Source: Phycisphaeraceae bacterium | Lineage (GTDB): Bacteria > Planctomycetota > Phycisphaerae > Phycisphaerales > Zrk34 | Direction of reading: 5' to 3' | Length of the DNA: 64,000 nucleotides | Assembly (NCBI GenBank): GCA_028282805.1 | Contig: JANQHD010000035.1 | Coordinates: 1 to 64,000, forward strand | Shown here: positions 12,558 to 24,598 of the stretch, piece after piece | Numbering within the stretch: the first letter of the stretch is position 1 | How the letters are laid out: each line of letters starts with the position of its first letter | Translations under genes and position numbers: made by a program | The notes under the pieces: model-generated | Told to the model about the DNA's origin: nothing | Seen by the model: only the letters and a program-made list of their open reading frames with translations | Databases searched by the model: none

Positions 12558-14411
12558 TCAGGTTTTCAGTTCGATCTCGACGGCGTACGAATCGCCGTCG
12601 AACTCGGTGCGCACGGGGTATCCCGAGTTCTGGAACAGGGCGAGCATGGCCTTGTTTTCGGGGAGCACGGTGGCGTCGAAGCGGTGCACGCCACGCTCGA
12701 CGGCGACTTGGCCCAGGGCCTGCATCATGCGTGTGCCCACGCCCTTGGCCTGCCAGTCGTCCTGCACGATGAACGCGATCTCCGCGGTCATCTCCGCGGG
12801 GTTGAGGAAGTACTGCGCGATGGCCACGATCTCGCCCTCGCCCGGCCCGGGCACGATGCCCACCAGCGCCAGGTTCTGCTCGTAGTCGATGTTGGTCAGG
12901 TGCTGCACGTCCTTCAGCGGGAACGCCTTGGTGTGGGTGAAGAAACGCCGGCGCACCGACTTCTCGCTCAGCGAGTACAGCATCTCGGTCAGCGGCTCGT
13001 CGTCGATCGGCTTGACGGGGCGCACGAAGATCTCGGTGCCGTCGTGGAGCGTGACGTGCTGCTCGATCTGCTGGGGGTAGGCGAGCTCGTCGAAGCCGAC
13101 CTCGATCTGGTCGGCGTAGACGAAGCCGCGTTCCTTCGCCTCGGCGAGTAGCTGCTTGCGGAACTTGGGGTGGGCGATGGAGATCAGCGCGATGGCGCGT
13201 TCGCGGATGGACTTGCCGTGCAGGTACGCCATGCCGTACTCGGTGACGACGTACTGGATGTCGGCGCGGTTGGTGACGACGCCCGCGCCCTCGCTGAGCG
13301 TGGGCACGATGCGGCTGACCGCGCCCTTCTTGGCCGTCGACGGCAGGGCGATGATGGCCTTGCCGCCCTTGCTGCGTGCGGCGCCGCGCATGAAGTCGAC
13401 CTGGCCGCCGAACCCGGAGTAGAGCTGCGTGCCCAGCGAGTCGGCGCAGACCTGGCCGGTCAAGTCGATCTCAAGGCCGACGTTGATCGCGACCATCTTG
13501 TCGTTCTGGCTGATGACCTGCGGGTCGTTGACGTAGCCGGTGGGGTAGAACTCGAACAGCGGGTTGTTGTCGATGTAGTCGTACAGCCGCTTGGAGCCGA
13601 GGCAGAAGCTGGCGACGACCTTGCCTCGGTTGACGTTCTTCTTGGCGCAGGTGACGGCGCCGGATTCGACCAGGTCGATGATCCAGTCGCCGAACATCTC
13701 CGTGTGGATGCCGAGGTCTTTCTTGTCGCGCAGGAACTCGGCGACCGCCTGGGGGACGCGGCCGATGCCGCACTCGATGGTCGAGCCGTCTTCGACGAGG
13801 CGGGCGACGTTCTCGCCGATCTTGCGTAGGGCGTCGGTCATCCGCAGCGGCGGGGTGACGGGCAGCGGCGCGTCGTGCGGCACGAGCACGTCGATCTGGT
13901 TCACGTGCAAGAACGAGTCGCCGAACGTGCGCGGCATGTCGGCGTTGACCTGCGCGATCACGTAGCGCGCGTTGAGGGCCGCGGCCTTGACGATGTCCAC
14001 CGACACCCCCAGCGAGCACAGCCCCCGCGCGTCCGGCGGCGTCACGCTGATCAGCGCCACGTCCACGGTGAACCGGCCCATCTCGATGTCGCGCGGGATG
14101 TCCGACAGGTAGATCGGTGTGTAGTCGCCGATGCCGCGCGCGATCGATTCACGCGTGTTGTCGGCGACGAAGAACGTGTTCATGCGGAACCGCTTGGCGT
14201 GCGGGCCGTCGGCGTAGGGCGTGTCGCCCATCGTTAACAGGTGCGTGATGTGCGCGTCGTGGATGTGGTCGCCGTGCTCGACGAGCGCGTCGACCAGGTG
14301 TTGCGGCGCGGCGCAGCCCGTGCCGATGAAGACGTTGTTGCCCGGGCGGATCAGCTCGATGGCCGACGGGGCGCTTCTGATCTTGTCGGCGTGTTGCGTT
14401 TGCCATTCCAT
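12558..14411 (-). CDS. acetyl-CoA hydrolase/CoA-transferase fused to GNAT acetyltransferase
   Basis: A 617-aa fusion. Residues about 1-440 are an acetyl-CoA hydrolase/4-hydroxybutyrate CoA-transferase domain (FIGTGCAAPQHLV near the start; the catalytic-Glu segment VVTEYGMAYLHG in the C-terminal half). Residues about 450-617 are a GNAT domain with the acetyl-CoA-binding loop QAKGVGTRMM. The ATG at 14411 is preceded by GAGGAG lying inside the upstream gene; only 6 bp separate the genes, so it is in an operon with the ADP-forming acyl-CoA synthetase. Likely role: acyl-CoA/acetate exchange with linked protein or metabolite acetylation; the acetylation target is unknown. Confidence 0.88.
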   Translation of the reverse strand: MEWQTQHADKIRSAPSAIELIRPGNNVFIGTGCAAPQHLVDALVEHGDHIHDAHITHLLTMGDTPYADGPHAKRFRMNTFFVADNTRESIARGIGDYTPIYLSDIPRDIEMGRFTVDVALISVTPPDARGLCSLGVSVDIVKAAALNARYVIAQVNADMPRTFGDSFLHVNQIDVLVPHDAPLPVTPPLRMTDALRKIGENVARLVEDGSTIECGIGRVPQAVAEFLRDKKDLGIHTEMFGDWIIDLVESGAVTCAKKNVNRGKVVASFCLGSKRLYDYIDNNPLFEFYPTGYVNDPQVISQNDKMVAINVGLEIDLTGQVCADSLGTQLYSGFGGQVDFMRGAARSKGGKAIIALPSTAKKGAVSRIVPTLSEGAGVVTNRADIQYVVTEYGMAYLHGKSIRERAIALISIAHPKFRKQLLAEAKERGFVYADQIEVGFDELAYPQQIEQHVTLHDGTEIFVRPVKPIDDEPLTEMLYSLSEKSVRRRFFTHTKAFPLKDVQHLTNIDYEQNLALVGIVPGPGEGEIVAIAQYFLNPAEMTAEIAFIVQDDWQAKGVGTRMMQALGQVAVERGVHRFDATVLPENKAMLALFQNSGYPVRTEFDGDSYAVEIELKT

Positions 14412-14417
14412 CGGCGG

Positions 14418-16523
14418 TTACTCCTCTACGCTGATGCGGGCGTCGACGGCGATCGGCGTGGTTCCGGCCGGGCCGATCATGAACGGGTTGATGTCCATCT
14501 CCTGGATCTGCGGGAACTCGGTGACGAGTTGGCTGAGCCGTTGCAGCGCCTCGGCGAGCGCGTCGAGGTCGACGCCCTCGCTGCCGCGTGCGCCGGTGAG
14601 CATCTTGTAGGTGCGCGTGGCCTTGAGCATCTGGCGGGCCTCGTCGTTGGTCAGCGGGGCGAGGTAGAAGCTGACGTCCTTGAGCACCTCGACGAAGATG
14701 CCGCCCATGCCGAACATCATCAACGGCCCGAAGCGTGGGTCGCGCTTCATGCCGAGGATGACCTCCATGCCCGTCATGCACTGCTGTTGGACCATGACGC
14801 CGAGGATGTCGGCCCCGGGCGCCTTGGCGGGGATGCGGTACATCATCAGGTCGAACGCGTCGGCGACCTCGCGCGCGTTTTCGAGGCCCACCCGCACGCC
14901 GCCCACGTCCGACTTGTGCGAGATGTCCGGCGACCACACCTTCATCACCACCGGGTAACCCAGTTGGTCGGCGAGGCCCACGGCCTGGTCGGCGGTGGTC
15001 GCGGTGCCGCCGCGGGGCGTGGCGAAGCCGTACGCTTCGAGCACCTCTTTCGCTTCCATCTCGCCGATCTCGCGCTGGCCGCGGCGGAGGTGGCGATCGA
15101 TGATCAGCTCCGTGCGGTGGCGGTTGACGGGGAACAGCTTGACCACGCGCTGCGGCCGCTTGCGCCAGCGCGCGTGGTCGGCCATGGCCTTCAGCGCCGT
15201 GACCGCGGTGTGCGGCCCGTCGTAAACCGGTAAGCCGCCGGCCCGCAGCACACGGTTTGCCTCGGCGACGTGTTCGGCGCCCATGAACGCCGTGAACACC
15301 GGCTTGCCCGGTGATTGCCGGCACACGTCGACCAATGCTTCGGCCGTTTCGACGCCCTGCGTCATCGCTTGCGGCGTCAACAAAACGAGCACGGCGTCGA
15401 CGTTCGCGTCGGCCAGCGCCAGCTCGGTCGCCTTGCGGTAACGGTCGGCCAGCGCATCGCCGAGCACGTCGATCGGGTTGTGCACGTTGGCGGCGGGTGG
15501 CAGGGCTTCGCTGAGCGCCGCTTTGGTTTCATCTTGCAACTTGGCGAAGGTCAGGCCGATGCGTTCGATCGCGTCGGCGGCCATGATGCCCGCGCCGCCG
15601 GCGTTGGTCACCACGGCCACGCGCTCACCGGGCGGCAGCGGCTGGCTGGCGAACGCTTGCGCTAAGTCGAACTGCTGCTTGACCGACTCGCAACGGATCA
15701 CGCCCGCGCGGTCGAAGGCCGATTCGTAGACCTGCTCGCTGCCCACCATCGAACCGGTGTGGCTCGACGCGGCGGCGGCCCCGGCCTCGGTGGCGCCGGA
15801 CTTGATCAGAAGGATCGGCTTGTGGCGCGAGATTTGGTCGGCCTCGCGCACGAAGGCGTTGCCGTCGTTGATCGACTCGAGGTAGCCGGCGATGACCTTG
15901 ACGTTGTCGTCGCGGCCGAGCGCGCGGATCAGGTCGAGCTCGTCGACGTCGGCCTTGTTGCCGATCGACACCAGGTGCGAGAAGCCGACCTGGTTGGCGG
16001 CGCCCACGTCGAGGATCGCCGTGAGCAGCGCGCCGGACTGGCTGATGTAGGCGATGTGCCCGTGCGCGGGGAGCTTGGCGGCGAAGCTGGCGTTGAGCTT
16101 GGCGTCGGGCACCATCAGGCCCAGGCAGTTGGGCCCGAGCAGGCGCAGGTCGTGGTGATCGGCGGTCTGAGTGAGGCGCTGCTCGAGGGCCGCGCCGGCG
16201 TCGCCGACCTCTTTGAAGCCCGCCGAGACGATGACCGCGGCCTTGATGCGCAGCTCGGCGCAGGTGTCGACCACGTCCGGCACAAACCGCGCCGGCACCG
16301 CGATCACCACCAGGTCCGGCAGCGGGTCGACCTCTTCGAGCTTGTCGTAACACGCCAGCCCCAGCACGTCGTCGGCGCTGGGGTTGACCGGGTAGATCGG
16401 GCCCTCGAACCCGCCGTCGATCAGGTTCTTCAGCAGCTCGTACCCAACCTTGCCGGGCGTGCGCGAAGCGCCCACCACAGCCACGGAGGTCGGCCGGAAC
16501 AGACAATCCATTGACACAGACAT
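14418..16523 (-). CDS. acetate-CoA ligase (ADP-forming), fused alpha-beta
   Basis: A 701-aa NDP-forming acyl-CoA synthetase with CoA-binding and ligase-CoA domains at the N-terminus (PTSVAVVGASRTPGKVG) and an ATP-grasp domain at the C-terminus. The phosphorylated histidine is H255 in SSHTGSMVGS. The ATG at 16523 is chosen because GAGGAATC lies just upstream; an earlier in-frame ATG lacks a ribosome site. It reversibly couples acetyl-CoA to acetate plus ATP. It is the first gene of a two-gene operon with the CoA-transferase/GNAT protein. Related proteins fused to GNAT (Pat) acetylate Acs in enterics; here the GNAT is on the neighbour. Confidence 0.92.
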   Translation of the reverse strand: MSVSMDCLFRPTSVAVVGASRTPGKVGYELLKNLIDGGFEGPIYPVNPSADDVLGLACYDKLEEVDPLPDLVVIAVPARFVPDVVDTCAELRIKAAVIVSAGFKEVGDAGAALEQRLTQTADHHDLRLLGPNCLGLMVPDAKLNASFAAKLPAHGHIAYISQSGALLTAILDVGAANQVGFSHLVSIGNKADVDELDLIRALGRDDNVKVIAGYLESINDGNAFVREADQISRHKPILLIKSGATEAGAAAASSHTGSMVGSEQVYESAFDRAGVIRCESVKQQFDLAQAFASQPLPPGERVAVVTNAGGAGIMAADAIERIGLTFAKLQDETKAALSEALPPAANVHNPIDVLGDALADRYRKATELALADANVDAVLVLLTPQAMTQGVETAEALVDVCRQSPGKPVFTAFMGAEHVAEANRVLRAGGLPVYDGPHTAVTALKAMADHARWRKRPQRVVKLFPVNRHRTELIIDRHLRRGQREIGEMEAKEVLEAYGFATPRGGTATTADQAVGLADQLGYPVVMKVWSPDISHKSDVGGVRVGLENAREVADAFDLMMYRIPAKAPGADILGVMVQQQCMTGMEVILGMKRDPRFGPLMMFGMGGIFVEVLKDVSFYLAPLTNDEARQMLKATRTYKMLTGARGSEGVDLDALAEALQRLSQLVTEFPQIQEMDINPFMIGPAGTTPIAVDARISVEE

Positions 16524-16756
16524 GATTCCTCGATCGGGTGGGGGCGGCATGATACTCAGCTTACCCGCCCCACGCACCGCCGTTCGCGTTAGTTCGAAAA
16601 AAATAGGGGTTTCGCCCCATGCGATCGAACAAGTGCGTTTGAAGGCGTGACGCTTTGACCGGCGGGGCGTTTTACGTGAAAATGCTCGCCCTCACCCCGC
16701 CACCCGCGGCGTGGCCACACCCCACGCCGCACCCAAACCACGAAAGGGTTACTCTG

Positions 16757-17520: not shown

Positions 17521-17593
17521 GCGGGCGTAACTCAATTGGTAGAGTGTCAGCCTTCCAAGCTGAATGTTGCCGGTTCGATCCCGGTCGCCCGCT
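17521..17593 (+). tRNA. tRNA-Gly (TCC)
   Basis: Acceptor stem GCGGGCG/CGCCCGC, anticodon loop CTTCCAA (anticodon TCC) on stem TCAGC/GCTGA, and T arm CCGG-TTCGATC-CCGG. CCA is not encoded. Confidence 0.95.
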
Positions 17594-17717: not shown

Positions 17718-18281
17718 ATGGCTGACAATTCTCCGACCCCACCCCGACCGGGCGGTGGCGGTTGTGACACGGACGTCCACGCGGCGACCTTCGCGCTGGC
17801 CGGGGTGTTGCGCCAGTTGGGGCCGGTGATCGAAGCGATGAGCGACGAGCAGTACGCCACCAAGTGCGTCGGCCACGTCGAGGGCAGCGCCGGCGGCCAC
17901 GTGCGCCACTGCCTCGACCACGTAACGGCGCTGCTCGGCGGCGTGAGCACGGGCTGCATCGATTACGAAACCCGCGAGCGCGGCACCGACGTCGAAACCC
18001 AACGCGCCGCCGCCGTCGCCACGCTCGAACGGCTTGCCGACCGCGTGTCGCGGCTCGACGCCGACGACATGGCCCAGGCCGTGCGCGTGATCGTGCGGTT
18101 CGGCGCCGACGACGCGACGGTGGCGGTCGGCTCGACGCTCGGCCGGGAGCTGGCGTTCGTGCTCAGCCACACGATCCACCACAACGCGCTGATCTCGGCG
18201 ATCGCCAACAGCCTGGGCATCCCCTTACCGGAGTTTTTCGGTTACGCGCCGTCGTCGGTCGCGTTCCTCAAGCAACAGTAA
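17718..18281 (+). CDS. DinB-like four-helix-bundle protein
   Basis: A 187-aa protein with a Gly/Pro-rich N-terminus and a DinB/YfiT-like helical bundle; candidate metal-binding histidines are in GHVRHCLDH (about residues 54-62) and in SHTIHHNAL (about 153-161). Family members include thiol-dependent transferases, and most are uncharacterised. GGAGAGATCCA precedes the ATG. The next gene starts 3 bp after its stop, making it the first gene of a tight four-gene operon. Reaction and substrate are unknown. Confidence 0.8.
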   Translation: MADNSPTPPRPGGGGCDTDVHAATFALAGVLRQLGPVIEAMSDEQYATKCVGHVEGSAGGHVRHCLDHVTALLGGVSTGCIDYETRERGTDVETQRAAAVATLERLADRVSRLDADDMAQAVRVIVRFGADDATVAVGSTLGRELAFVLSHTIHHNALISAIANSLGIPLPEFFGYAPSSVAFLKQQ

Positions 18282-18284
18282 CCC

Positions 18285-19040
18285 ATGTGCACCGTGACGA
18301 TCATTCCGCAAGGGCCGGTGGGCTTTCGAATGCTGTGCAACCGCGACGAGCAGCGGACCCGCCCGCCCGCGCAGAGCCCGCAACACGTCAAGCTCGACGA
18401 GTTCGACGCGGTCATGCCCATCGACCCGGTGGGCGGCGGCACGTGGATCGCCGCGACCGACCACGGCCTGGTCATGACGCTTTTGAACATGAACCTCAAG
18501 CTCGCCAGCCCCTCGCTGACCGGCGCGTCCGCCAAGGAAAGCCGGGGCTGGATCATCACCGAGCTGATCAAGTCGGCGAACTTCGAGCGGGCCTGCGAGG
18601 GGGCCCGGCGGATCGACGGCGGGCGCTTCAACCCCTTCCGCCTGGTCATCGCCAACTGCGAGCAGCTGGCCGTGGCGACCTGCGACGGGGCCGAGGTGCA
18701 CGTCGAGCGGCGGGCGATGCCGGGTAGGCCTTGGATGATCACGTCGTCGGGTCTCGGCGACGAGCTGGTCGAGGGGCCGCGCCGCGAGCTGTTCGACGGC
18801 TGGTTCGGCGACGAACGCGCCGCATGGGGCGAGCGGCAGCGCGCGTTCCACCGGCACGCCTGGCCCGAAAAGCCCGAGCTGTCGGTGTGCATGAGCCGGC
18901 CCGACGCGCGCACGGTGAGCGTGACGAGCGTGACGGTCAGCCCCAAGCACATCGAGATGGTCTACCACCCCGACGCGCCGGACGCCGAGGCACACGACGA
19001 GACGATCACGCTCGATTGCGTAGGCGGGGCGGTCGGATGA
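18285..19040 (+). CDS. NRDE/TANGO2-family protein
   Basis: A 251-aa protein starting MCTVTI with the hallmark CNRDE at residues 18-22 after the N-terminal strand, as in NRDE-domain (TANGO2-like) proteins. These have an Ntn-hydrolase-like architecture with Cys2 as a possible nucleophile, but no settled biochemical role. It starts 3 bp after the DinB-like gene and overlaps the next gene by four bases (ATGA), so translation is coupled. Total length matches family members. Confidence 0.88.
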   Translation: MCTVTIIPQGPVGFRMLCNRDEQRTRPPAQSPQHVKLDEFDAVMPIDPVGGGTWIAATDHGLVMTLLNMNLKLASPSLTGASAKESRGWIITELIKSANFERACEGARRIDGGRFNPFRLVIANCEQLAVATCDGAEVHVERRAMPGRPWMITSSGLGDELVEGPRRELFDGWFGDERAAWGERQRAFHRHAWPEKPELSVCMSRPDARTVSVTSVTVSPKHIEMVYHPDAPDAEAHDETITLDCVGGAVG

Positions 19041-21646
19041 CAGGCAAGCGTCGTCGCCGTTGGCGGTGGTGGCACGTCTACCTGCTGCTGCTGGTGCTGT
19101 CGAACATTGTGCAGCTGGTTTGGCCGGGCTGGCCTGGCGACGCCGAGCCGGCGAACCAGCGGGCGGTGACCGTGCCGCGCATGGGCCGCGCGGGCGAGGT
19201 CGACGGCAAGCCCGTCGAGCTGACCTACCGCACGTACGGCGACCCCGACTCGCCGATCAAGGTGCTGGCGATCCACGGCAGCCCCAAGTTCGGCCCCGAC
19301 TACGCCGTGCTCGGCCCGCTGCTGGCCGAGCGCGCCCACGTCGTGGCCTTCGATGCGCCCGGCTTCGGCGGCTCGACCAAGTGGGTGGGCGACTACGGCA
19401 TCGAGGCCCAGGCCCACTACGCGCTGGCGGTGATGGACCAACTCGGCTGGCGGCGCGCCCACGTGTTCGGCTACTCGCTCGGCAGCGGCGTGGCGCTCGA
19501 AATGTTCGACGCGCAACCCGACCGCATCCGTTCGCTGACCTTCTACGGCGGCGTCGGCATCATGGAAGGCGAGGGCAGCGGCGACTTCCAGTTCGAGCAC
19601 CTCAAGTACCGCGTCGGCTACGCCGTGGTGGTCGTGGGCTTCGAGCTCGTGCCGCACGGCGGGCTGCTGGGCAAACGCTCGCTCCGCCACGCGTTTATGC
19701 GCAGCTTCATGGACACCGACCAACGCCCGCTGCGCCGCGTGCTCGAAAAGGTCAACGAAGCCAAGCTGCCCATGCTCATCGTGCACGACCACGACGACGT
19801 GCTCGTGCCCGCCGCCACGGCACGCGCCCACCACGACATCGTCGAACACTCGCAGCTGGTCATGCTCGCCCACGGGCACATGGGGTTGTTCGAGCCGGCC
19901 GGGGCGCAAGAGATCGCCGACGCGGTGTTGCCGTTCCTCGAACAAGCCAGTGCGCCGGGCTTTGCCCCGGTCCGACAAACCGACGACACCTACGCGGCGA
20001 AGGTCGTCGAGGTCGATTCGCCGCTGCCGTTCGGCCTCGACCTCAAACGCGACATGAGCCCGTGGCAACAGATCTTCACCATCACCATCGGCTGTTACAT
20101 CCTCGAAGACCCGACCACCGTGTTCACCGGCCTGATGGTCGTCGCCGGGCAGGTCGACCTGTTCGTGGCGCTGTTCGGCATCTTCTTCGGCATCTTCACC
20201 GGCGACTTCTTGCTGTACCTGACGGGCCGCATCTTCGGGCAGAAGGTGCTGCGGTGGGGGCCGCTGACGAGGCGGTTGCCCGTGCGGCACATCGAACGGC
20301 TCAACGCGTGGTTCGACCGGCACGGCTGGTCGGCGGTGCTCGCGTCGCGCTTCATCCCCGGCACCCGGTTCCCGTTGTACGTCTCGGCGGGCGCGCTGGG
20401 CATGAAGCCCCTGCGCTTCGCGATGTGGACCGGCATCGCCGTCGCCATCTGGGCGGTGGTCATGCTGGCGATCGTGCTGGCCCTGGGCGAGAAGGCCACC
20501 TCGCCGTTCAAGTGGTTGTTCGGCGACAACATCCTCGCGCTGATCGCCGCCGTCGTGGTGCTGCTGTTCGTGGTGCGCGCGATCCTGCTGCTGTCGACCA
20601 AGGTCGGGCGCGGCAGGCTCATCGCAAAAATCACGCGCCTCTGGCAGCCCGAGTTCTGGCCGATGTGGGTGTTCTACCCGCCGGTCTGGCTGTACATCGG
20701 GTGGCTGATGCTCACGCGCGGCGGCCTGAGCAAGGCCACCGCCGCCAACCCCGCGATCCCCGCCGGCGGCTTCATCGACGAATCCAAGTCGCACATCCTC
20801 GGTTTATTTCCCGACGAGTGGGTCATCCCCTACGCGGTCATCGACTCGCCCGAAGCGTTACGCACCACGATGACCGAGCGCGGCTGGTCGTACCCGATCA
20901 TCCTCAAGCCCGACACCGGCTACCGCGGGCGCGGCGTGATGAAGGTCGACGACGACGCCGAGGCCGACGAATACTTCGCCCAGGCGCACGGCACGACGAT
21001 CGCGCAGGTCTTCCACCCCGGCCCGTTCGAGGCGGGCGTGTTCTACTACCGCCTGCCCGGCGATGACGAGGGCCACATCTTCTCGATCACCGACAAGCGG
21101 TTCCCGGTGATCACCGGCGACGGCGTGCACACGCTCGAGCAGCTGATCTTCCGCCACCGCCGCTACCGCATGCAGGGCGACCTGTACGTCGGGCGCCACG
21201 GCGACGACCGCGACCGCGTGCTGGCCGAGGGCGAGCGGTTCTCGTTGGGCGTGGCCGGCAACCACTGCCAGGGCACCAAGTTCCTCGACGGCGCGCACCT
21301 GATCACCGAGCCGCTGCGCCGGCGTGTCGACGCGATCGCCCGCCACCGCGAGGGGGTGTACTTCGGCCGGTTCGACGTGCGCTACGCCGACGCCGAGGCC
21401 TTCAAGGCCGGCCGCGACTTCGCGATCATGGAGTTCAACGGCCTGACCGCCGAATCGACCAACATCTACGACCCGTCGTTTGCGTTGTGGCGCTCGTGGC
21501 GTGTACTGTGTCGCCAATGGGCACTGGCTTTCGACATCGGCTGCGCTAACGCGCGAAACGGCGCGGCCACCACGTCGACTATCCAACTGTTGAAGATGAC
21601 GTACCACCACATGCGTCATCGCACGAAACGAAAGGTCGCCGATTGA
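19037..21646 (+). CDS. alpha/beta hydrolase - DedA/VTT - ATP-grasp fusion
   Basis: An 869-aa three-domain protein. After an Arg-rich start and TM anchor (about 12-30), residues about 60-310 are an alpha/beta hydrolase: nucleophile Ser147 in GYSLGSG, acid near Asp252-255 (VHDHDD), His279 or His281 in LAHGHMG. Residues about 340-550 are a DedA/VTT membrane domain with RFIPGTRFP (about 437-445). After two more hydrophobic segments, residues about 590-850 are an ATP-grasp ligase (KPDTGYRGRG near 622-631; FDVRY and IMEFNG toward the end). Start and stop overlap both neighbours (ATGA, TTGA). I do not know this combination as a described enzyme. A membrane-bound acyl/lipid conjugation role is inferred. 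Confidence 0.88.
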   Translation: MTGKRRRRWRWWHVYLLLLVLSNIVQLVWPGWPGDAEPANQRAVTVPRMGRAGEVDGKPVELTYRTYGDPDSPIKVLAIHGSPKFGPDYAVLGPLLAERAHVVAFDAPGFGGSTKWVGDYGIEAQAHYALAVMDQLGWRRAHVFGYSLGSGVALEMFDAQPDRIRSLTFYGGVGIMEGEGSGDFQFEHLKYRVGYAVVVVGFELVPHGGLLGKRSLRHAFMRSFMDTDQRPLRRVLEKVNEAKLPMLIVHDHDDVLVPAATARAHHDIVEHSQLVMLAHGHMGLFEPAGAQEIADAVLPFLEQASAPGFAPVRQTDDTYAAKVVEVDSPLPFGLDLKRDMSPWQQIFTITIGCYILEDPTTVFTGLMVVAGQVDLFVALFGIFFGIFTGDFLLYLTGRIFGQKVLRWGPLTRRLPVRHIERLNAWFDRHGWSAVLASRFIPGTRFPLYVSAGALGMKPLRFAMWTGIAVAIWAVVMLAIVLALGEKATSPFKWLFGDNILALIAAVVVLLFVVRAILLLSTKVGRGRLIAKITRLWQPEFWPMWVFYPPVWLYIGWLMLTRGGLSKATAANPAIPAGGFIDESKSHILGLFPDEWVIPYAVIDSPEALRTTMTERGWSYPIILKPDTGYRGRGVMKVDDDAEADEYFAQAHGTTIAQVFHPGPFEAGVFYYRLPGDDEGHIFSITDKRFPVITGDGVHTLEQLIFRHRRYRMQGDLYVGRHGDDRDRVLAEGERFSLGVAGNHCQGTKFLDGAHLITEPLRRRVDAIARHREGVYFGRFDVRYADAEAFKAGRDFAIMEFNGLTAESTNIYDPSFALWRSWRVLCRQWALAFDIGCANARNGAATTSTIQLLKMTYHHMRHRTKRKVAD

Positions 21647-22278
21647 CGTCTCCCCGCAGCGAAGCCGAGGTCGTCCGCCCGGGCAAGATCGCCGAGTCGC
21701 TGATCTTCGCCGGACAGTTCCTGCGCCACGGCAAGAAGGTCGCCAGCCTCGTGCCGTCGAGCAAGCCCATGGCCCGCCGGCTCAGCTGCGAGGTCGACCC
21801 CGCCCGGCCGCAGGTCATCGTCGAGCTCGGCACGGGCACCGGCGTGGTGACCGAAACGGCGATCGCGCGCATGCACCCCGACAGCCGGCTGGTCGCCTTC
21901 GAGCGCAACGCCAAGTTCGCCGAGATCACCGCCAATCGCTGCCCGCGGGCGACGGTGCTCTGCCGCGATGCCGCCCACTTCCACGAGGCGCTGGCGGAGA
22001 TGGGCGTCGACCGGGTGGACGTGGTGATCAACTGCCTGCCCACGCCCAGCCTGCCGGCGGGCGTCAACGAGGCGATATTCCGCTCGGCGGCAAGCGTGAT
22101 GGACGAGGTGCGCATGACACAGCTGACGGAGATCCCCATGTATTACTTCCGGCTGTACCGCCGCCTGTTCCACCGGGTGCGGTTTACGCCGGTCGTGCGG
22201 AACTTCCCGCCGGCGGGTGTCTACCATTTGCGCGGCCTGCGCAGCGATTTCGTCAGCGGGTTGCCCAACCGGGCGTAA
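21643..22278 (+). CDS. PmtA-like SAM-dependent methyltransferase
   Basis: A 211-aa class I methyltransferase. Motif I is ELGTGTGVV (about residues 60-68), preceded by a PSSKPMARRL segment that, with the FLRHGKKV lead-in, resembles phospholipid N-methyltransferases of the PmtA type and also rRNA dimethyltransferase-like enzymes. It starts with TTG at 21643, overlapping the stop of the upstream fusion gene (TTGA), so translation is coupled. It is the last gene of the operon; a membrane lipid substrate is inferred from similarity and from the DedA-containing partner. Confidence 0.8.
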   Translation: MTSPRSEAEVVRPGKIAESLIFAGQFLRHGKKVASLVPSSKPMARRLSCEVDPARPQVIVELGTGTGVVTETAIARMHPDSRLVAFERNAKFAEITANRCPRATVLCRDAAHFHEALAEMGVDRVDVVINCLPTPSLPAGVNEAIFRSAASVMDEVRMTQLTEIPMYYFRLYRRLFHRVRFTPVVRNFPPAGVYHLRGLRSDFVSGLPNRA

Positions 22279-22400: not shown

Positions 22401-23384
22401 ATGAGCAAAGTCGACCCTCCCCAGCCCAAAGCCAGCTTCCGTCACTTTTTCTTTCGTGGTCTGGGCATCCTTCTGCCCACGGTTTTGACGATCTGGCTGG
22501 TCGTGCTGGCCTACAACTTCGTCGACCAGAAGATCGCCCGGCACATGAACACCGGCGTGCGCGTGCTCGTGCTCAAGGCCACCCCCTGGCCCCACGCGAA
22601 CGACAAGGACTACGTCTACGTCAGCAACAAGCTCGACCGCGGCACGCTCTCCAGCGACGAACAGCTCACCAGCGCCAGGGTCGTCGCCGCCGAGTCCGAC
22701 TGGGCCAAGCAGAAGGAGCAGCTCGCCGGCGAGAACGAGGCGGAAGCCCGCCTGGCCTACGTCAAAGAAAACCTCGACTTCGTCGCCCGCCGCCACCGCC
22801 TGCAGCTGATCTGGAACAGCATCAAGCTCGGCGACTGGGCGGTGCTGAACCTGATCGGCCTGTTCATCGCGTTGTTCCTCATCTACCTGATCGGCCGCCT
22901 GCTCGGCGGGTACATCGGCCGGCGGATGTACGAACAGGGCGAAAGGTTGCTGCTGAGATTGCCGATCTTCAAGCAGGTGTACCCGTACGTGAAACAGGTC
23001 ACCGACTTCTTCGTCGGCGACAAGGACGACAAGTTGCAGTTCAGCAAGGTCGTGGCCGTGCAATACCCCCGCAAGGGGCTGTGGTCCATCGGCCTGGTGA
23101 CCGGGGAGACGATGCGCACGATCCAGGCCAACGCCGAGCGTGCGTGCATGACGGTCTTCATCCCCTCATCGCCCACGCCCTTCACCGGCTACGTGATCAC
23201 GGTGCCGGTGGAAGACACCATCGAGGTGGCGATCTCGATCGACGACGCGCTGCGTTTCTGCGTCAGCGGCGGCGTGATCGTGCCCGATTCACAAGCGATC
23301 CAAGGCCAAGGCGAGCACACACCGATCGCCGTTTCCCAGCCCGCCGCACCCGGCGCTGGCGAGGAAACGGTGAAATCTGGATAA
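22401..23384 (+). CDS. DUF502 membrane protein
   Basis: A 327-aa inner-membrane protein with a TM helix at about residues 20-40 (GLGILLPTVLTIWLVVLAYN) and a second at about 150-170 (LNLIGLFIALFLIYLIGRLL), then a soluble domain with the DUF502 pattern (RLPIFKQVYPYVKQVTDFF). A 100-residue hydrophilic insert separates the TM helices. The family is widespread and uncharacterised. It lies directly upstream of HPF, PtsN and HPr on the same strand. Confidence 0.88.
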   Translation: MSKVDPPQPKASFRHFFFRGLGILLPTVLTIWLVVLAYNFVDQKIARHMNTGVRVLVLKATPWPHANDKDYVYVSNKLDRGTLSSDEQLTSARVVAAESDWAKQKEQLAGENEAEARLAYVKENLDFVARRHRLQLIWNSIKLGDWAVLNLIGLFIALFLIYLIGRLLGGYIGRRMYEQGERLLLRLPIFKQVYPYVKQVTDFFVGDKDDKLQFSKVVAVQYPRKGLWSIGLVTGETMRTIQANAERACMTVFIPSSPTPFTGYVITVPVEDTIEVAISIDDALRFCVSGGVIVPDSQAIQGQGEHTPIAVSQPAAPGAGEETVKSG

Positions 23385-23414
23385 TGGCCCCTAACCAGGC
23401 CAGGGAGGTATGAC

Positions 23415-23717
23415 ATGCAATTCAAGATGAGCGGCAGGCACCTCGACGTCACCCCCGCGATCCGCGAGTACTGCGAGCAGAAGACCGAGCGCCTGCACCG
23501 GTACTGGGACCGGATCTCCGCGATCACCGCCGTCATCGACCAGCACGACCGCAACTTCGAGGTGGAAGTCCTCGTCGATACCGACCACACCAAGCCGTTC
23601 GTCGCCAAGGAAACCGGCGAAGACCTTTACGCCTGCATCGACAGCGTCGTCGACAAGCTCGAGCGTCAACTGACCGACCACAAAGAGAAACTACGCAACC
23701 GCAAGCACATCGCGTGA
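23415..23717 (+). CDS. hpf: ribosome hibernation promoting factor, short form
   Basis: A 100-aa HPF/RaiA (YhbH-like) protein beginning MQFKMSGRHLDVTPAIREY. It binds the 30S subunit in stationary phase and inactivates or dimerises ribosomes. It lacks the C-terminal extension of the long form. GGGAGG precedes the ATG. It is followed after 46 bp by ptsN, an order like the hpf-ptsN pair of proteobacterial rpoN operons. Confidence 0.93.
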   Translation: MQFKMSGRHLDVTPAIREYCEQKTERLHRYWDRISAITAVIDQHDRNFEVEVLVDTDHTKPFVAKETGEDLYACIDSVVDKLERQLTDHKEKLRNRKHIA

Positions 23718-23763
23718 CGGCCGAGCCGTTGCGCCGCCACAGGGGCACAAGAGGAAACACGGA

Positions 23764-24240
23764 ATGAAGCTGGCTGATTTTGTCCTGACCCAAGCACTGG
23801 TCCCGCAACTGTCGACCACCGACCGCGACGAGGTGATCACCGCGCTCGTCGACGCCATCATCGACGCCGGCGGCGTCGACAAGGCGCTCCGCCAGGAGCT
23901 GATCGACGCGATCCTCGACCGCGAGAACAAGGGGTCGACCGGTTTCGGCAAGGGCGTGGCCGTGCCGCACGTCAAGCACACCAAGATCGAGAAGATGGTT
24001 GCGACCATCGGCGTCAGCGCCACCGGCGTCGACTTCAACGCCCTCGACAAGCAGCCGGTCTACTCCGTGGTCCTGCTCATGAGCCCCGAGGACCAACCCG
24101 AGGGTCACCTGCAGGCGATGGAGAACATCTTCCGCAACCTGCAGAACGACACCTTCCGCAAGTTCCTCCGCCAGGCCACCACGGCCAAGGACATCGAGGA
24201 ACTCATCACGGAAGCCGACAACCACCAACTGGCGGGCTGA
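23764..24240 (+). CDS. ptsN: PTS EIIA, fructose/nitrogen type (PtsN-like)
   Basis: A 158-aa EIIA domain of the mannitol/fructose family. The phosphorylated histidine is H69 in GVAVPHVKH. There are no EIIB/EIIC permease genes nearby, so a regulatory, PtsN-type role is more likely than sugar uptake. AGGAAACACGGA precedes the ATG. HPr is 76 bp downstream, so both phosphocarriers are probably co-expressed. Confidence 0.9.
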   Translation: MKLADFVLTQALVPQLSTTDRDEVITALVDAIIDAGGVDKALRQELIDAILDRENKGSTGFGKGVAVPHVKHTKIEKMVATIGVSATGVDFNALDKQPVYSVVLLMSPEDQPEGHLQAMENIFRNLQNDTFRKFLRQATTAKDIEELITEADNHQLAG

Positions 24241-24316
24241 GCTTCCCCCCGCCCGTTTGCCGCGCGCGACACCCCGCGCGGGCAAACGCCGACGACTTGG
24301 AGGGCTTGCCAGCGAT

Positions 24317-24598
24317 ATGGCCGACGCGCAGAGCTGTCAAACCACGGTCACGATCCTCAACCGGCTGGGTATGCACGCCCGGCCGGCGATGTCGTTCGTG
24401 GACCTGGCCAACCAGTTCCAGTCGGCCGTGACCGTCCGCAAGGCCGAGCAGGCCGTCGATGGCAAGTCCATCATGCAGATGATGATGCTCGCGGCCACCA
24501 AGGGCACGCAGCTGGAGATCGTCGTGCAGGGCCCCGACGCCCCCGACGCGCTCAGCGCCCTGAGCGAACTGGTCAACCGCAAGTTCGATGAGGATTAA
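24317..24598 (+). CDS. HPr family phosphocarrier
   Basis: A 93-aa HPr with the active-site histidine H20 in GMHARPA and a serine at the position of Ser46 (S51 in DGKSIMQM), so HPr kinase control is possible. It accepts phosphate from EI and passes it to EIIA domains. The ATG at 24317 is chosen because GGAGGG lies 12 nt upstream; a TTG 60 bp earlier in frame gives a Pro/Arg-rich unlikely extension. Enzyme I is not in the window. Confidence 0.93.
   Translation: MADAQSCQTTVTILNRLGMHARPAMSFVDLANQFQSAVTVRKAEQAVDGKSIMQMMMLAATKGTQLEIVVQGPDAPDALSALSELVNRKFDED

Follow-up and report, generated by a model that had tools for sequence, protein, structure and literature searches.

An alpha/beta hydrolase-DedA-ATP-grasp fusion and its DinB and NRDE partners: a probable module of ornithine-lipid-type amino-lipid metabolism

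What might a single polypeptide do that carries an alpha/beta hydrolase, a DedA membrane domain and an ATP-grasp ligase? The question is raised by a four-gene operon at positions 17,718 to 22,278 of a 64,000-nucleotide stretch from a Phycisphaeraceae bacterium (assembly GCA_028282805.1, contig JANQHD010000035.1, positions 1 to 64,000 of the forward strand; this whole stretch is called the window below). Genes for a DinB-like protein and an NRDE/TANGO2-family protein precede the gene for the 869-residue fusion, and a lipid methyltransferase gene follows it. A first-pass annotation, made from the letters of the window, had suggested a lipid-tailoring and perhaps aminoacyl-lipid pathway. This suggestion is upheld here, and is sharpened to the ornithine-lipid type by linkage of the genes to the synthases OlsB-OlsA, OlsF and OlsI-OlsH. 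The conserved core of the operon is DinB-NRDE-fusion (the cassette), and the methyltransferase is a variable fourth gene. The cassette very probably belongs to an amino-lipid pathway, and we consider it probable that it serves, within ornithine-lipid (acyloxyacyl amino-lipid) metabolism, as a module for tailoring and translocation. The assignment to a pathway is strong, and the reactions of the individual domains are proposed conditionally.

Ornithine lipids are phosphorus-free membrane lipids. Roughly half of bacteria are believed to produce them, and OlsB-OlsA, OlsF and OlsH-OlsI are three unrelated routes to them (PMC12493201). In a distant planctomycete (G166; L163:6849-11684), OlsB, OlsA, DinB and the fusion form an operon whose genes are joined by four-base overlaps (ATGA, ATGA and GTGA), and in three further genomes (G187, G205 and G212) OlsB-OlsA stand immediately before the fusion. 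A Verrucomicrobia metagenome-assembled genome (MAG) has the order OlsB-OlsA-(DedA-ATP-grasp)-NRDE on a single strand. Family f2 has OlsI-OlsH-DinB-NRDE-fusion operons, which are close same-strand runs. Twelve genomes of seven genera, in families f1, f5 and f6, carry an OlsF-like gene near the fusion, usually directly downstream and convergent, and in a Desulfobulbaceae MAG (L130:6399-11405) OlsF lies 10 bp upstream of the DedA-ATP-grasp gene on the same strand. NCBIfam scores of the neighbours are E 4e-115 and 1e-126 for OlsF, 9e-114 for OlsH, 1e-22 for OlsI, 2.5e-40 to 4.5e-44 for OlsB, 3.8e-37 to 2.3e-43 for OlsA, and 1e-46 and 6e-53 for OlsG. Neighbours were counted at the 51 loci in named genomes that have 6 kb of sequence to each side. 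An OlsB, OlsF or OlsH gene lies within 6 kb at 25 of them (14 OlsF, 6 OlsH, 5 OlsB); with two such genes in every 4 Mb, about 0.4 loci would be expected.

Proximity might also come from a shared regulon with ornithine-lipid synthesis, for example in phosphate starvation, the cassette itself having another target, for instance a peptide or a protein that its RimK-like ligase modifies. OlsF is convergent in most loci, which makes it a neighbour rather than an operon partner, and the nearest folds of the ATP-grasp domain (described below) include the protein modifiers RimK and LysX. This explanation is nevertheless distinctly unlikely, given the overlapping operons with OlsB-OlsA, the close same-strand runs with OlsI-OlsH, and the presence, in the same polypeptide as the ligase, of a lipase-like hydrolase and a lipid-flipping DedA domain; moreover, genes for peptides or carrier proteins were not seen recurring near the cassette.

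Synthase and cassette also occur in the same genomes. In a sample of 101 genomes of the order, where carriers were defined by an ATP-grasp gene at E <1e-38, 49 genomes carry the gene. OlsF or OlsH is present in all 49 of these and in 18 of the other 52 (Fisher 5e-14), and a phylum-wide sample has a synthase in 9/9 cassette genomes and in 12/90 others (2e-7); both p-values overstate independence, as the genomes are related. The co-occurrence extends over several lineages, and the synthases are mutually non-homologous. By our own reading of the matches, 19 of 23 carriers in Acidobacteria, Verrucomicrobia and other phyla have an OlsF or OlsB-type match.

Several points weigh against an ornithine-lipid module, besides the relatedness of the genomes. 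About half of the well-covered loci have no Ols gene within 6 kb, and in the genome of the window itself the OlsF-like gene (G000:C45:164673-166361) is unlinked to the cassette. Eighteen genomes of the order have a synthase and no cassette, so that the cassette is dispensable for ornithine-lipid synthesis, and a few genomes have the ATP-grasp part with no detectable DedA part. Nearly all of the Ols neighbours score below the tight equivalog cut-offs, and their amino acid may therefore differ from ornithine; the OlsF-like protein of the window's genome matches over nearly its full length with 412 bits (E 2e-123), below the NF052615 equivalog cut-off of 620 bits.

A pathway of the same kind whose product is an N-acyl lipid of a different amino acid (glycine, lysine or glutamine) or of a dipeptide, using synthases with a changed choice of head group, would fit these scores. 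The OlsF-like neighbours reach 385-424 of the required 620 bits and also match the glycine-lipid proteins GlsB/GlsA (E 5e-39 and 4e-21), and other amino acids are expected for some OlsH relatives (PMC12493201). The OlsF model, however, scores far above the glycine-lipid models, and ornithine is the common factor among three kinds of synthase with characterised members that make ornithine lipid, together with an OlsG-like enzyme in two genomes. We regard another amino acid as a minority possibility, and ornithine lipid as the better candidate.

The operon and its parts are as follows.

17718-18281, + strand: DinB-like protein, 187 aa (open reading frame (ORF) call and Pfam).
18282-18284, + strand: 3-bp gap, DinB-like gene to NRDE gene.
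18285-19040, + strand: NRDE/TANGO2-family protein, 251 aa (ORF call and Pfam).
19037-19040, + strand: ATGA stop/start overlap, NRDE gene to fusion gene.
19037-21646, + strand: hydrolase-DedA-ATP-grasp fusion, 869 aa, with an N-terminal transmembrane (TM) anchor (ORF call, Pfam and structure model).
19067-19120, + strand: predicted N-terminal TM helix of the fusion, residues 11-28, preceded by a KRRRRWR stretch that points to an N-terminus inside.
19157-19960, + strand: alpha/beta hydrolase domain, residues 41-308, predicted periplasmic, with the triad S147/D254/H281.
20060-20593, + strand: DedA/VTT membrane domain, residues 342-519 (Pfam, conservation and model).
20759-21619, + strand: ATP-grasp ligase domain, residues 575-861, predicted cytosolic (profile, fold and conservation).
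21643-21646, + strand: TTGA start/stop overlap, fusion gene to methyltransferase gene.
21643-22278, + strand: OlsG-like lipid N-methyltransferase, 211 aa, TTG start; an accessory that few relatives have.

The gap and the two overlaps, from which coupling of the four genes had been claimed, were all located at these junctions. The three-domain protein is likewise intact and conserved: matches over nearly the full three-domain length, at 36-57% identity and with zero internal stops, come from more than 25 genomes of the order, which rules out a sequencing chimera. The three-domain form is also found in other planctomycete families far from the window, and an alignment search of genome contigs with the ATP-grasp part gave 213 matches. 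The first-pass annotation had named two outcomes that would count against it, namely that the domains are never fused in homologues or that the neighbouring genes vary freely. The first is contradicted by this search of other genomes, in which the same architecture and the same DinB and NRDE neighbours recur; the second applies to the methyltransferase and not to DinB, NRDE or the fusion. The idea of an operon built on a three-domain fusion holds for the fusion itself, with the qualification that the hydrolase part is optional, as many relatives are DedA-ATP-grasp proteins only. These hydrolase-free proteins, of about 540 aa, are found in Planctomycetota, Verrucomicrobia, Acidobacteria, Hydrogenedentota and one Desulfobulbaceae MAG. 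Whether the hydrolase fusion arose once was asked with a rapidly built tree of the DedA-ATP-grasp region, which gave a support of 0.15. Two other arrangements were seen: one genome has a fused-type hydrolase as a separate 646-aa protein (L058:225-2165, G011:C31) and DedA-ATP-grasp alone on another contig, and Gemmata sp. IIL30 has NRDE/TANGO2 and DedA-ATP-grasp in one 778-aa ORF (L065:7567-9903), in which the NRDE profile matches at E 3e-90.

A tRNA-Gly(TCC) gene lies immediately 5' of the operon (17521-17593), and directly 3' of it (22401-24598) are DUF502-like, ribosome hibernation factor-like, PTS IIA-like and HPr-like genes, named by eye, which occur in identical order in G038 (L022). On the − strand, 12558-16577 holds two large genes near the cassette, also named by eye: an acyl-CoA synthetase-like protein and an acetyl-CoA hydrolase/transferase-like protein whose C-terminal region is GNAT-like. 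At several other loci (L094, L117, L118, L121 and others) the recurrent neighbours of the cassette are a membrane protein that resembles ferric reductases and bears a Rieske domain, a partner protein with no Pfam match, and one DoxX-like and one YHS-domain protein.

The structure of the whole fusion was modelled with a pLDDT (predicted local distance difference test score) of 90.7 and a pTM (predicted template modelling score) of 0.79. Pfam identifies Abhydrolase_1 at residues 76-287 (68 bits), and the best sequence match of the hydrolase domain in the PDB is PlaF (6i8w, E 2e-10). Ser147, proposed earlier, is invariant in the alignment of fusions; of the two histidines proposed with it, His281 is the catalytic one, being kept in 97% of fusions, and His279 is dropped. 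The catalytic acid is most likely Asp254, which is kept in 100% of fusions. With its TM anchor and Ser/Asp/His triad the hydrolase is of the PlaF-like membrane-anchored type, and its location is predicted to be periplasmic. It was also considered as an OlsI; this identity is unsupported, OlsI relatives reaching only about 30-63 bits against a profile of the fused hydrolase, and the two are distinct groups.

The DedA domain, as annotated previously, belongs to its family by Pfam (VTT, residues 365-478, 55.3 bits with a cut-off of 33.9). Two arginines of the second re-entrant helix, R438 and R444, are each kept at a level of at least 90%. The acidic-residue criterion for UptA/COG0586 is a pair of residues at the first re-entrant helix (E39 and D51 of YghB); here E357-D358 are conserved and there is no clear counterpart of YghB D51. 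One might see the protein as an UptA-like recycling protein for undecaprenyl phosphate (UndP) that has gained extra domains and serves the cell wall, since the fusion matches the UptA model at E 2e-13 and both arginines are a mark of the UndP subfamily COG0586 (PMC10127716). It reaches, however, only 50.9 of the 250 bits of the UptA equivalog cut-off, several family members have no detectable DedA part, and the neighbours of the cassette are amino-lipid genes and not wall genes. The fused DedA is the sole VTT protein found in its genome, and that genome also carries a PF04018 (PopT/DUF368) UndP transporter, because of which the fused DedA is not needed for UndP recycling. A role in the cell wall is therefore very improbable.

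The full-model fold search was dominated by matches to hydrolases, and the ATP-grasp part was therefore modelled separately (pLDDT 91.5, pTM 0.90). Its nearest fold is cyanophycin synthetase CphA1 (Z 16.9, root-mean-square deviation 4.2, 269 aligned), followed by the bifunctional glutathione synthetase GshAB, LysX/ArgX and RimK, at 13-17% identity in the structural alignment. A profile of this part compared with solved structures also finds cyanophycin synthetase (E 2e-8), and the profile match and the predicted fold together bear out the ligase assignment made earlier. No Pfam ATP-grasp family scores above its cut-off for the window protein (best 12-14 bits), and the RimK cut-off is barely passed by relatives at L140 and L163. 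Invariant residues of the domain are K624, K687, R778/D780/R782 and E799-x-N801, among which K624, D780, E799 and N801 correspond to the ATP/Mg-binding residues of the superfamily (Lys; Asp; Glu-x-Asn). At L130 a pyridoxal-dependent decarboxylase (diaminobutyrate decarboxylase-like, E 3e-57) is encoded 59 bp after DedA-ATP-grasp. This locus suggested a decarboxylase as the source of the amine for the ligase, an idea that we do not retain, as the gene recurs at no other locus among those compared.

Charge counts over 25 fusions indicate how these domains may be arranged in the membrane. The N-terminus (+4.6), the 396-428 loop (+4.8) and residues 518-540 (+4.0) are positive and the hydrolase is negative (-9.6), on account of which the first three are predicted to be inside and the hydrolase outside. 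This topology would place the ATP-using ligase inside in the cytosol, the lipid-moving domain in the membrane between, and the lipase-like enzyme outside in the periplasm, and it agrees with the re-entrant-loop models of DedA (PMC7818093) and with PlaF, in which a TM anchor carries a hydrolase in the periplasm (PMC9132575).

The two small partners had been regarded as possible accessories with no settled role, a view that does not hold: they are the most constant neighbours of the fusion, they have invariant active-site residues, and they are also found in fusion-free OlsI-OlsH operons. The DinB-like protein belongs to Pfam DinB_2 (28.9 bits, cut-off 24.8), and its metal-binding set H61, H64, H68, H151, H154 and H155, together with R63, is kept at 98-100% for each residue in 63-64 relatives. 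The NRDE protein belongs to TANGO2/NRDE (PF05742; 43.8 bits, cut-off 22.6), with Cys2, R20-D21-E22, H189 and R205 invariant in 57 relatives; within the motif, RDE is kept at 100% and N at 81%, and Cys2 is at the nucleophile position of an N-terminal-nucleophile hydrolase. Because the His/Arg set and Cys2, RDE and H189 are kept, both proteins look active, to judge from their sequences. A phmmer search of either protein against the PDB gave zero matches. DinB and NRDE lie upstream of the fusion in most planctomycete loci, and the order in Acidobacteria is DinB, DedA-ATP-grasp, NRDE. Of the 32 genomes of the order with an NRDE gene, this gene by our count adjoins the ATP-grasp gene in 23 and OlsH in 4 more. 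Where OlsI-OlsH-DinB-NRDE operons occur with the fusion gene elsewhere in the genome (L142, L143, L145 and L149; also L144), DinB-NRDE travels as a pair.

The fourth gene had been annotated as a PmtA-type methyltransferase. This identity is rejected on the far better score of the OlsG model (159 bits, E 1e-46) than of the PmtA model (63.9 bits, E 1.3e-17); the protein is OlsG-like, and lies below the NCBIfam NF041658 equivalog cut-off of 350 bits. Among the loci examined, only the window and G084 have it after the fusion.

How might these parts work together? Since OlsB-OlsA or OlsF alone suffices for ornithine lipid, the cassette would act after synthesis. A synthase (OlsF-like here, OlsB-OlsA or OlsI-OlsH in relatives) would make the lipid at the cytosolic face, and the cytosolic ATP-grasp domain may then activate a carboxylate as an acyl phosphate and couple it to an amine. 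This branch of ligases joins carboxylate and amine, and ornithine lipid has a free alpha-carboxylate and a delta-amine, so that the most likely product would be a head group extended by an amide bond, at the alpha-carboxylate (as cyanophycin synthetase does at its chain end) or at the delta-amine. We give head-group ligation by this domain an even chance. Taurine-ornithine and serine-glycine lipids are precedents for extended head groups (PMC12493201). The DedA domain would take the finished lipid across the inner membrane; that it flips the same lipid is as probable as not, and its two conserved arginines would suit an acidic head group. More tentatively, the periplasmic PlaF-like serine hydrolase could edit the acyl chains outside, by removing or exchanging the ester-linked fatty acid. 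NRDE, with Cys2 as nucleophile, and the DinB-like metal protein may be dedicated pathway enzymes or acyl carriers that act on the same lipid or its precursor, and in this genome the OlsG-like enzyme would N-methylate the head group, OlsG proper being the methylase of the delta-nitrogen of ornithine lipid.

The same parts could be read as a system for turnover or repair of amino lipids, in which the hydrolase and NRDE strip acyl or amide groups, DedA returns lipids and ATP-grasp salvages the product. There are two putative hydrolases in the cassette (triad S147/D254/H281; NRDE Cys2), and one of them resembles PlaF, a phospholipase A of membrane remodelling (PMC9132575). ATP-grasp ligases form bonds, however, and in operon order the cassette stands right behind biosynthetic acyltransferases; we consider turnover improbable, and favour tailoring and translocation.

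In its fullest form, the proposal is that one membrane-spanning polypeptide couples ornithine lipid to an amine or an amino acid on the inner side, flips the lipid via its own DedA domain and remodels its acyl chain outside, giving an undescribed lipid class, with the TANGO2-family NRDE protein as a dedicated enzyme of the pathway. All of this together is rather doubtful. If such a single-polypeptide amino-lipid factory did exist, it would hint at the ancestral function of TANGO2. Known modifications of ornithine lipids are few, and the cassette offers candidate genes both for modification and for membrane crossing. It also gives a chemical setting to families with no settled function, namely DedA outside UndP recycling, DinB-like metal proteins and NRDE/TANGO2; an NRDE protein in an amino-lipid pathway would be a handle on TANGO2. 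Loss of human TANGO2 leads to severe heart and muscle disease.

The architecture is unreported, while ornithine-lipid tailoring as such is known. The first-pass annotation knew of no described system with this layout, and our search of the open-access literature likewise found no description; in the same literature, where absence is not proof, we found no paper on DedA and ornithine lipid, nor one on the membrane crossing of ornithine lipids. Comparisons can be made part by part. The nearest folds of the ligase domain, CphA1, GshAB, LysX/ArgX and RimK, are amide-bond formers that proceed through acyl phosphates, and we know of no member among them that acts on lipids. In the TANGO2/NRDE family, the human protein was recently reported to bind acyl-CoA via its NRDE motif (PMC11867700); the partner of the fusion shares the Pfam family and the motif, and is here a gene of a bacterial amino-lipid operon with an invariant Cys2. 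DedA proteins such as UptA and YqjA (COG0586) have the VTT domain and the two arginines of the second re-entrant helix, as in the fusion, and the partners reported for DedA fusions are rhodanese, PAP2 and disulfide-oxidoreductase, not a hydrolase or ATP-grasp (PMC10127716). PlaF of Pseudomonas (6i8w) is a membrane-anchored periplasmic phospholipase A1 with the triad S137/D258/H286 (PMC9132575). It has the same N-terminal TM anchor, periplasmic alpha/beta hydrolase and S/D/H triad spacing as the fusion, but no DedA or ATP-grasp part, and its substrates are glycerophospholipids. OlsB-OlsA and OlsF, relatives of which adjoin or share operons with the cassette, make the lipid, whereas the cassette contains no acyltransferase of these kinds and is expected to work later than they do or alongside. 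There is a likeness, too, to another planctomycete amino-lipid operon, OlsH-OlsI-OlsG of Singulisphaera acidiphila, in the description of which DinB, NRDE, DedA and ATP-grasp genes go unmentioned (PMC12493201). In family f2, DinB-NRDE-fusion comes after relatives of its OlsH and OlsI, and in the window the fusion is followed by an OlsG-like gene; beyond what such an operon has, the cassette brings in ligase, hydrolase and flippase-type domains.

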